Origin: Candidatus Fermentithermobacillaceae bacterium
GTDB taxonomy: Bacteria; Bacillota; Sulfobacillia; Fermentithermobacillales; Fermentithermobacillaceae
Reading direction: 5' to 3'
Assembly (NCBI GenBank): GCA_012837895.1
Contig: DUQH01000104.1
Span: 1-42,665, forward strand
DNA: 42,665 nucleotides
Shown here: piece after piece, positions 40,421 through 42,665 of the stretch
Numbering within the stretch: position 1 is the first letter of the stretch
Layout: every line of letters starts with the position of its first letter
The notes under the pieces: model-generated
Told to the model about the DNA's origin: nothing
Seen by the model: the letters and a program-made list of their open reading frames with translations, nothing else
The model's database searches: none
Program-made: the position numbers and the translations under genes

Positions 40421-40909
40421 ATGAGCAGGGATATCACTCTTTCAGCGACCATAACAAGGATAGCTTTGCTGGCAGGGATTTACGCAGCCCTGACAGTGCT
40501 TCCCCCGTTTTCAAGCTTGGGGTACGGGCCGGTCCAAGTCAGGGTGTCTGAGACCCTTACAGTACTCCCCTTCTTGTTTCCTTGGGCCAAGTGGGGGCTT
40601 TACATTGGGTGCATCGTGGCAAACCTGGCAAGCCCTTTTCTGGTGTGGGATATTACCCTGGGTGCTTTAGCCAGCCTCATAAGCGGGCTTATCACCGAGC
40701 GGATGCCCAATGCATATCTCGCTCCTTTGCCTCCTGTACTTGTCAACGCATTTGTGGTCACAGCATATGTTGCGCCTCTTAGCGGGCTAAACTACTGGCC
40801 TGTGCTTGCACAGATATTGTTGGGGCAGGTGGTTTCCTGCTATGTGTTTGGGCTACCCTTATTAATGTTCTTGATAAGAAACCCTCATCTTACCAGGCGG
40901 CTGCAGTGA
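40421..40909 (+). CDS. queT: QueT-family queuosine precursor transporter
   Basis: This 162-residue membrane protein matches the QueT family, the substrate-binding component of an ECF-type importer for queuosine precursors such as preQ1. About five hydrophobic helices are visible, with VQVRVSETLTVLPFLFPWAKWGLYIGCIVANL a typical segment. It lies 45 bases after purD, perhaps on the same mRNA. No preQ1 riboswitch can be drawn in the short gap. Its final codon and stop lie inside the first unit of a 34-bp tandem repeat. Confidence 0.87.
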   Translation: MSRDITLSATITRIALLAGIYAALTVLPPFSSLGYGPVQVRVSETLTVLPFLFPWAKWGLYIGCIVANLASPFLVWDITLGALASLISGLITERMPNAYLAPLPPVLVNAFVVTAYVAPLSGLNYWPVLAQILLGQVVSCYVFGLPLLMFLIRNPHLTRRLQ

Positions 40910-41037
40910 AGACATCCTGCCGGTTTAGGGAAGATCGCAGCGAAGACATCCGGCCGGCCTAAGGACGACTGCAGCGAAGACATTGTGCCAGCCAAAGGAC
41001 GATTGCAGTGAAGACATCTTGTTGGTTAAGGACGATT
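40903..41037 (+). repeat. 34-bp tandem repeat, four units
   Basis: Units start at 40903, 40937, 40971 and 41005 (34, 34, 34 and 33 bp). Each begins GCAGYGAAGACAT and, in units 2 to 4, ends with AAGGACGAYT. The centres vary (CCTGCCGG, CCGGCCGG, TGTGCCAG, CTTGTTGG). 34 is not a multiple of three and stops occur, so it is not coding beyond the queT stop. No function is evident. Confidence 0.92.
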
Positions 41038-41116
41038 GCCCGCAGAATAGGCTACTCCGATCGCGTAGAACGGATGTTACCATGACCGTAAGAACGGAAG
41101 GCATGAGGTTGCATCT

Positions 41117-41500
41117 CTACCGGCGGGCCACCGAATCGATTTCTTGCCCCGTGCCTTCCAGGGTTATGACCATGCGATTGGGGACACAAACGATAGATTG
41201 TCCCGGATAGGAGATCCATCCGGTCCTCCAGCATATCTCATTGGGACATACATCGTGATCCAGGGGCATCACCCGCACCTTTCCCTGGCCATGTTCTATG
41301 GTGGCTTCTCCTTGCGGGACTGCTATCGTAGTTTGAGATAGCGTTTCAGAGCCAACAGGCAACCGGGCCACTTCCTGACCGTTTATCCTTACGACGGCAA
41401 CCAATTCGCTGCTTCTGTCCGGTAAGTACCTAAGCCCTGCCCAGATTAGTACTGTAGCTGCTACCCCCAAAGAGATCAGTATCTTGTCGCCTCTTGTCAC
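41117..41500 (-). CDS. NusG domain II-containing protein, membrane-anchored
   Basis: This ~127-residue protein has one N-terminal TM helix (about 8-26) and an extracytoplasmic NusG-domain-II-like beta domain with the family signature CPNEIC ... GWISYPGQSIVCVPNRMVI. Function is unknown; such genes are common in Clostridia, often near rnf or thiamine genes, neither seen here. On the - strand GGAGGA is seven bases from GTG 41500 and four from TTG 41503; I use the GTG. It sits between two unrelated repeat arrays. Confidence 0.82.
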   Translation of the reverse strand: MTRGDKILISLGVAATVLIWAGLRYLPDRSSELVAVVRINGQEVARLPVGSETLSQTTIAVPQGEATIEHGQGKVRVMPLDHDVCPNEICWRTGWISYPGQSIVCVPNRMVITLEGTGQEIDSVARR

Positions 41501-41503
41501 CAA

Positions 41504-41747
41504 TCATTCCTCCATACGGCAGTCCGGGCGTTTATATTATCCCGCTGCGGAAATGATAACACCCATTTGGTACGGTTGGCAGCTGCTGTTGGACAAAGGC
41601 TTGTCCATTTCAGCACCAGGTTCGGCTCAGAGGTGATCGGATTTGGTACCAGGTCCTGGAGCAATCTGGCTGGTTCTGGTGCCAGCACTCCTATAACATC
41701 AATTCGTGCTTGTTGCAGAAGCCTTAGCGGACCGCAGGCAGGAATAA
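41504..41747. other. Non-coding flank of the 53-bp array
   Basis: No gene is visible. TGGACAA-N4-TTGTCCA (41590-41607) is a different perfect dyad whose right edge lies exactly three 53-bp periods before that of array unit 1. Other TGGTACC- and CTGGTGCCAG-like pieces (41644, 41676) are out of register. It may be a decayed part of the array. Confidence 0.5.
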
Positions 41748-42508
41748 TGGTGCACCAAGTATGCCATTGTGTCTGCCGGGCAGCCATAAAACGGGCAAAA
41801 TGGTTCACACAGTGCACCATTTTACCTGCCGGACAACTGAAAAACCGCGAAATCGGTACACGTAGTATACCATTACAGCCGCCGGCTTGGCCGAAACGCG
41901 GAGCATTGGTGCACACGGTGCACCGTTTTACCGGAAAACATTCTCAGAGCTCCGGTAATTGGTGCATCCTGTGCACCATTCTCACCGAAACCGTAGCGGA
42001 AACCGGCAAGATTGGTACACCCAGTGCACCATTTCTGCAGAAATCTTAGCTCGAGCTTGCAAGAATGGTACACACGGTGCGCCATTTTGGCAGCGATGAA
42101 GTCTGAAAACCGGAAAAATGGTGCATGTGGTGCACCGTTTTGGCCGAAAGCATCCCAAGAACCAGAGTAATCGGTGCATCCAGTGAGCCATTTTGGATGG
42201 CATCAACGACAAAACCGGGAATAATGGTGCACGTAGTGCGCCATTTTAGCTAATCTGTTCCGGCGAACCTGCAAAATTGGTGTACCCAGTGCACCATTTT
42301 GACTATCCTGCTGCGAGAAACCTGCAAAACTGCTGTACCCAGTGCACCATTTTGGCCCTACAGGTAACAAAAAACAGAAAGACTGGTGCGCGTGGTGCAC
42401 CATCTTGGCAGAAAGCAAGGCGAAGACCCAAAAGTTTGGTGCATGTCGTATACCATCTTGTCGATACCTTAGCCTATATCGACTGGCCTTGGTTCATGGT
42501 GACATTTT
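41748..42508. repeat. Exact 53-bp-period array of diverged TGGTGCAC-N3-GTGCACCA dyads
   Basis: Dyads start at 41748, 41801, 41854, 41907, 41960, 42013, 42066, 42119, 42172, 42225, 42278, 42331, 42384 and 42437. A left half-site only, TGGTTCAT, is at 42490. Every step is exactly 53 bp. The 19-bp consensus is TGGTGCAC-N3-GTGCACCA; half-sites vary mainly by transitions, while the GG of the left half is kept in all units but one. A T-run with GGC often follows each dyad, and AAACC-x-GCAAAAT-like sequence precedes it; the ~14-bp centre between is highly variable. The period is not a multiple of three and no frame stays open through it. Confidence 0.93.
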
Positions 42509-42665
42509 TCTCTGCCTGTTTACAGGATTACAGCATCACTGGCCGGTAGCAGTGGCCAACACCTGTATTGATAGCTGACATATACTGAAATATTAGCCTG
42601 TCCCAAGGCTACAAAGAAGGATTTTCCATTGATGCGTAGAATATAGTGTCAACGAAAGCCATCTC
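42509..42665. other. Non-coding sequence at the window's right edge
   Basis: No gene start is recognised. CACTGGCC and CAGTGGCC form a short direct near-repeat (42537-42557). TAGCCT (42594-42599) can pair with AGGCTA (42606-42611). Whether the array precedes a gene to the right cannot be judged here. Confidence 0.4.

Follow-up and report, generated by a model that had tools for sequence, protein, structure and literature searches.

Intergenic arrays of dyads spaced by whole helical turns in one genus of Candidatus Fermentithermobacillaceae

The sopC site of the F plasmid (parS-F), which is bound by SopB/ParB, consists of twelve 43-bp units, each spanning four helical turns and carrying a dyad for a ParB dimer (PMC9178275, PMC6238139). 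Tandem sites for IclR-family dimers lie about two turns from each other on the same DNA face; the MhpR operator reads GGTGCACCTGGTGCACA (PMC8222616). Phased A-tracts are a known nucleosome-type positioning and curvature signal (PMC3940949). The array described here lies in the last kilobase of the window, i.e., the whole stretch of 42,665 nucleotides that was analysed, and belongs to a family of arrays. By anatomy, sopC is its closest known analogue, as both have tandem units of whole turns with a short dyad, and arrays of one species (G001) even run at 42/43 bp. Unlike in sopC, dozens of arrays are scattered over the chromosome, the dyad is a different one and has a 3-bp spacer, spacings of four, five, six and seven turns are mixed, and the linkers are diverged but A/T-phased. 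There is also no parA-parB operon beside the arrays, whose flanking genes are unrelated, and the arrays fall outside the sopC class. With the MhpR operator, the dyad shares nearly the same core half-sites and the same 3-bp spacer, whereas IclR sites occur in ones or twos at promoters and not in arrays of 14-20. A/T-rich steps once per turn recall Lrp-type wrapping arrays and nucleosome-positioning DNA, from which the arrays differ in that a specific dyad fixes their frame.

The window array comprises 14 dyads of the form TGGTGCAC-N3-GTGCACCA, 19 bp each, with centres at 41757+53n without exception (last centre at 42446; Table 1). A repeat search likewise returned 14 copies in the window, with a start-to-start distance of exactly 53 bp 13 times consecutively. 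A symmetric position matrix that was trained with the arrays of four species and refined on the whole family gives 22.6-38.7 bits at each 41757+53n for n = 0 to 13 and strongly negative values at n = -2, -1, 14 and 15 of the same register. Since no score ≥9 occurs in 400 kb of related genome, a chance origin of the dyads is excluded. Fifteen starts at 41748+53n had been proposed in a first-pass annotation; those for n = 0 to 13 stand, whereas the site at n = 14 is in register but falls in a distinct, conserved terminal segment. The dyads are alike at 73% of positions on average, the GC content is ordinary (50%), and TRF reports only 2.2 copies because the units have diverged. Units 11 and 12 look like a recent unit duplication. 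The array stops before the contig end, and an assembly artefact, which the first-pass annotation had named as a possible refutation, is excluded because the orthologous locus of sister species aligns with both flanks (from ~42575 rightward and left of ~41590). Elsewhere in the window, a 34-bp tandem repeat of 4.1 copies (TGCAGCGAAGACATCCTGCCGGCCTAAGGACGAT) at 40902-41039 begins at the 3' end of the QueT gene.

Table 1. Coordinates of the array, its dyads and adjacent features in the window.
Feature	Position	Strand	Basis or remark
Whole array, 14 dyads at exact 53-bp centre spacing	41748..42455	.	repeat search and matrix
Dyad 1	41748..41766	.	PWM 27.2
Dyad 2	41801..41819	.	PWM 31.9
Dyad 3	41854..41872	.	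PWM 24.1
Dyad 4	41907..41925	.	PWM 28.5
Dyad 5	41960..41978	.	PWM 31.6
Dyad 6	42013..42031	.	PWM 34.1
Dyad 7	42066..42084	.	PWM 34.4
Dyad 8	42119..42137	.	PWM 38.7
Dyad 9	42172..42190	.	PWM 25.5
Dyad 10	42225..42243	.	PWM 34.1
Dyad 11	42278..42296	.	PWM 35.6
Dyad 12	42331..42349	.	PWM 24.7
Dyad 13	42384..42402	.	PWM 27.2
Dyad 14	42437..42455	.	PWM 22.6
Conserved terminal segment	42478..42551	+	includes "half-site" 42490-42508 and box CTCTGCCTGTTTACAGGATTACAGCATCACTGGCCGGTAGCA at 42510-42551
Weaker conserved segment, other array end	41685..41731	-	47 bp, 81% to outer flank of G001 array L054
Promoter-like TTGATA-N17-TATTAG, pointing out of the array	42568..42596	+	by eye
NusG domain II protein gene, flanking	41117..41503	-	PF07009

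Arrays of the same motif are also found elsewhere in the genome of the window (G000) and in three of the four other species of one genus within Ca. Fermentithermobacillaceae (DTU015-like). At least 46 arrays of three or more dyads each, with 396 dyads, are dispersed between genes. The sample consists of draft genomes of five species with genes called by a simple codon score, and the array counts are lower bounds because many arrays end contigs; some arrays at contig ends are halves of one array (L081/L178; C79/C38). In a profile search of 151 genomes, dense array sets were found only in the four species, with two weak matches in G003, which is probably the genus's most divergent species. G003 has no arrays at two loci compared and almost none genome-wide, and since this sister species is nearly without arrays, the system is dispensable. 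An exact-pattern scan of GTDB genomes returned arrays in this genus and on one contig of another MAG, and single matches elsewhere. On that contig (L099:7561-7826, JAKPFY010000116.1), one 53-bp array neighbours hydE/hydG/hydF-like genes; the MAG, a Bacillota genome of 2.7 Mb, has no other array, which may reflect transfer or misbinning. Plasmids and phages gave no blastn match to the arrays, and viral contigs contain one isolated dyad. No description of the array family was found in the papers and collections searched.

The array and flanking genes of L056 (G001 contig 43) are 99-100% identical to those of L082 (G000), although the two species are otherwise clearly divergent, and a misbinned contig is the probable explanation. 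An array of another motif around TCCGC/GAATTC, with a 32-bp period (~3 turns), was found in G006, a genome of another genus of the family (L128:14053-14340). It may be an analogous system, but it was the only array that a de novo search of G006 for similar ones returned, which is too little to argue from. The array-less sister species G003 has a 62-bp tandem repeat with AACGTTT motifs at a contig end (L146:5100-5390), and a 15-bp tandem repeat (~AGGAAGTCTTCTTAA) lies next to a G001 array (L159:780-990).

Among 341 dyad-to-dyad distances in 44 arrays of four species, 339 lie within ~1 bp of a multiple of 10.6 bp. The distance is 53 bp in 284 cases, 52 or 54 bp in 13 and 42 or 43 bp in 37; three intervals of 63/64 bp, one of 75 bp and one of 95 bp (nine turns, with one dyad missing) are rarer, and only one of 48 bp and one of 78 bp are off-turn. 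A Rayleigh test on the 44 non-53 intervals gives p ~1e-15, a value that, like the other test statistics reported here, overstates independence because units within an array share ancestry. The variation is of whole turns also within and between genomes. In G001, L057 runs at 42/43 bp almost throughout, whereas L058, L183 and L185 alternate 43 and 53 bp. Orthologous arrays at the rpmE locus (L054/L062) have the series 43,43,43,43,43,42,53,53 and 53,53,63,53,53,53,52,53, respectively, which differ by whole turns. Thus, the number of turns between dyads is free and the phase is fixed. The selection on distance and the placement of all dyads on one helix face proposed in the first-pass annotation are supported, as intervals other than 53 bp still sit on four, six, seven or nine turns. 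Freely varying spacing in relatives, which it had listed as speaking against its reading, was sought and not found; only the number of whole turns varies. Going beyond an "exact 53 bp", this quantisation is the strongest indication that a protein would assemble on one face.

The linkers have no sequence conservation, yet their A/T content rises with a 10.5-bp period that is phased to the dyads. Counted from the dyad centre, which is itself A/T, the linker peaks of A/T content at ~20-22 and 31-33 bp continue the register of the A-runs that flank the centre at 10-13 bp, so that A/T runs occur at offsets of ~0, 10-11, 21, 32 and 42 bp. Compared with within-linker shuffles, the phase has the expected sign in 44/44 arrays and z>2 in 36 (Stouffer z 24), and it is also found in arrays without linker identity. 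Because the peaks are in register with the dyads, the A/T-rich minor grooves face the side from which a dimer would cover the dyad centre, and by analogy with phased A-tracts, DNA curvature toward the protein is predicted. The two arms of the dyads vary independently of each other: both deviate together in 88 cases, where 88.3 are expected. Therefore, they behave like protein half-sites, which argues against an RNA hairpin or a cruciform, as these would show compensation if they were under selection. The letter preference of the half-site is shifted in one species (GGYACAC in G001), as expected if a binder co-evolves. Arm independence and in-phase linker A/T agree with the dimeric binder suggested in the first-pass annotation, and a putative protein may bind the dyads.

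These data bear on two rival explanations. A string of hairpins acting at the RNA level as terminator, attenuator or riboregulator is highly improbable: that each dyad could fold into an 8-bp stem with a 3-nt loop is its sole support, whereas the arms vary without covariation, the arrays have no bias toward the 3' ends of convergent genes, helical quantisation is meaningless for RNA, and an Rfam search of the last 12.7 kb of the window matched no family. Scarcely more credible is a plain tandem repeat with spacing that is exact through youth. Units do multiply by duplication, and linker identity reaches 0.6-0.8 in some arrays, but linker residues are near background identity in many arrays, spacing is just as exact at background linker identity (L061, L070, L072, L084), the spacing variants are whole turns, and the linkers keep their A/T phase.

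Almost all dyads (394/396) lie outside predicted genes, though the loci are 80% coding. The flanking genes are unrelated housekeeping genes (QueT, a NusG domain II protein, leuS, metG, L31, D-Ala ligase, SpoIIE, ABC transporters, SOD and others), so the conserved DNA-binding gene that the first-pass annotation had envisaged next to the arrays is not supported; a binder gene was also sought beside isolated single dyads and not found. Nor does a plasmid iteron, another identity it had considered, fit chromosomal loci among housekeeping genes and arrays that match no plasmid or phage. In three species, arrays flank a cluster of MarR-like, ABC, ABC and SOD genes on one side or on both (L061, L063, L068, L088). 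About ten loci have an array in the same intergenic gap in two or three species, and these arrays differ in the units themselves, in how many there are and in turn count. The D-Ala ligase/YabP locus, for example, has 14, 8 and 5 units across species and none in G003, and some orthologous loci have an array in one species and a single dyad in another. Orthologous arrays persist while their units turn over. At the window locus, three sister species keep the genes but have no array, and the gap measures ~1 kb in G000 compared with ~90-100 bp in sister species. Hence, the window array has been gained or lost among these species.

The right end of the window array is conserved beyond the dyads. The terminal segment is 77-85% identical to the ends of the non-orthologous arrays L074, L075 and L088 (its last part also to L077), and identity of the box core between species reaches up to 100% in other arrays. 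At position 42490 (TGGTTCAT), the left side is arm-like and the right side is not an arm; equally good arms occur 30 times in the 42.6-kb window, i.e., ~7e-4 at a pre-set position. Other arrays, too, have a conserved copy of the stretch around 42490 (TGGTTCATGGTGACATTTT...) beside them, and at L182:9440-9495, where the nearest dyad is 4.3 kb away, its right part (ATGGTGACATTTTCTCT...) occurs again. The presumed fifteenth half-site is therefore better read as part of the terminal box than as a decayed dyad. The terminal core CAGGGTGACAATATCACTGGCCGGTAGCA is found at the ends of the window array and of eight others, nearly all at unrelated loci in three species, and lies just upstream of promoter-like sequences. 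The DNA of the promoter-like sequence beside the window array is conserved with sister species without the array. Solo copies of the box (AGGGTGACAATATCACTGGCCGGTAGCA) were observed at L182:9440-9495, L207:2059-2092 and L082:82-123, where the available sequence contains no array; the one at L207 lies upstream of a pyrR-like gene. Possibly, the solo copies are the site of a separate promoter-proximal regulator.

The ends and the placement of the arrays bear on two further explanations, both of which would leave the dyads as protein sites. One holds that the arrays are the inside of a non-coding MITE-like element with related inverted ends, dispersed selfishly, with the dyads as transposase or host sites. 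The terminal box common to nine arrays at different loci of three species, the related outward-facing boxes at both ends of L074, L077 and L054 and the window locus that is empty in sister species would fit such an element and suggest that array and end can spread together. The box, however, is present at only 9/46 arrays and also solo (L182, L207), no clear target duplication was seen by eye in the flanks of L074, L077 and L054 or at the empty window site, and decay should bring free indels, yet spacing is quantised where linkers are saturated. We regard this explanation as unlikely; it may account for the spread of the arrays but not for their maintenance, and mobility is a possible way of spreading, not a function. 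The other, which seems rather doubtful, is that the arrays are enhancer-like upstream regions, in which a transcription factor on phased dyads acts on the adjacent promoter. In its favour, promoter-like sequences of the array-adjacent rpmE, rpsT and superoxide dismutase genes, as well as of the array-free pyrR, have the terminal box immediately upstream (the names rpsT and pyrR come from translated sequence, not from a profile search). But the flanking genes have no common function, and five arrays lie between convergent and 20 between co-directional genes, with seven between divergent ones. Array edges lie a median of 233 bp from gene starts and 90 bp from gene ends, which weighs neither way on a regulatory role.

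Known DNA-binding proteins were compared with the distribution of the arrays. Spo0J is present in 12/12 genomes and a Noc-like protein in several, and both also occur in the array-less G003. The Noc-like ParB was considered because Noc sites are dispersed; its presence does not track the arrays, and the G003 copy has a near-identical helix-turn-helix stretch. An IclR protein, suggested by the MhpR operator, was rejected as PF01614 (IclR_C) occurs in G000 only and is absent from G001, G002 and G004, and so was Lrp/AsnC, since PF01037 is absent in 12/12 family genomes with positive controls. REP/BIME elements are likewise intergenic, dispersed clusters of palindromes, but the genus has no RAYT (Y1_Tnp) gene, the arms show no covariation, and the helical phase is strict. 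A CRISPR array does not fit either, as the window dyads are not near-identical and the linkers are A/T-phased.

Taken together, the window array is likely to be one copy of a genus-specific, dispersed, intergenic family of DNA-level scaffolds that would be bound by a dimer on one face and bend the DNA. Quantised spacing, A/T phase, arm independence, intergenic placement, persistence with unit turnover and gain or loss of whole arrays are read directly from the DNA, and the physical reading of helix-phased, dimer-bound and bent DNA is well supported by them. Each 19-bp dyad would be the site of one dimer, which would read two successive major grooves and straddle the central minor groove. Whole-turn spacing would keep the dyads on one face, so that neighbouring dimers might touch or share one bound surface, and phased A/T runs would put narrow minor grooves on the dyad face all along the array. 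The DNA would thereby be predisposed to curve toward the protein, giving a bent or wrapped nucleoprotein array. A dimeric binder, its cooperativity and the direction of bending are putative, and it is only the A/T phase that would point to wrapping. Less certain is the role, which most likely would be that of a chromosome-organising or segregation-type nucleoprotein cluster, possibly with effects on neighbouring promoters. More tentatively, the arrays might represent a sequence-encoded, nucleosome-like packaging within a genus, in which the dyad sets the frame, linker A/T wraps or curves the DNA round the dimer and spacing is in whole turns, maybe serving as a centromere spread over the chromosome or as an anchor of chromosome domains, with an origin inside the genus; this is possible but not probable.

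The usual demonstration of helical phasing between regulatory sites shifts one site at one promoter. In these arrays, evolution ran the phasing test several hundred times, as distances change between species and do so by whole turns. Thus, the arrays are a natural data set on the number of turns that a nucleoprotein array tolerates and on the linker bases that matter, as well as on how such arrays arise, spread and get lost within one genus. Furthermore, they point to a putative DNA-binding protein that would have binding sites throughout the chromosome.
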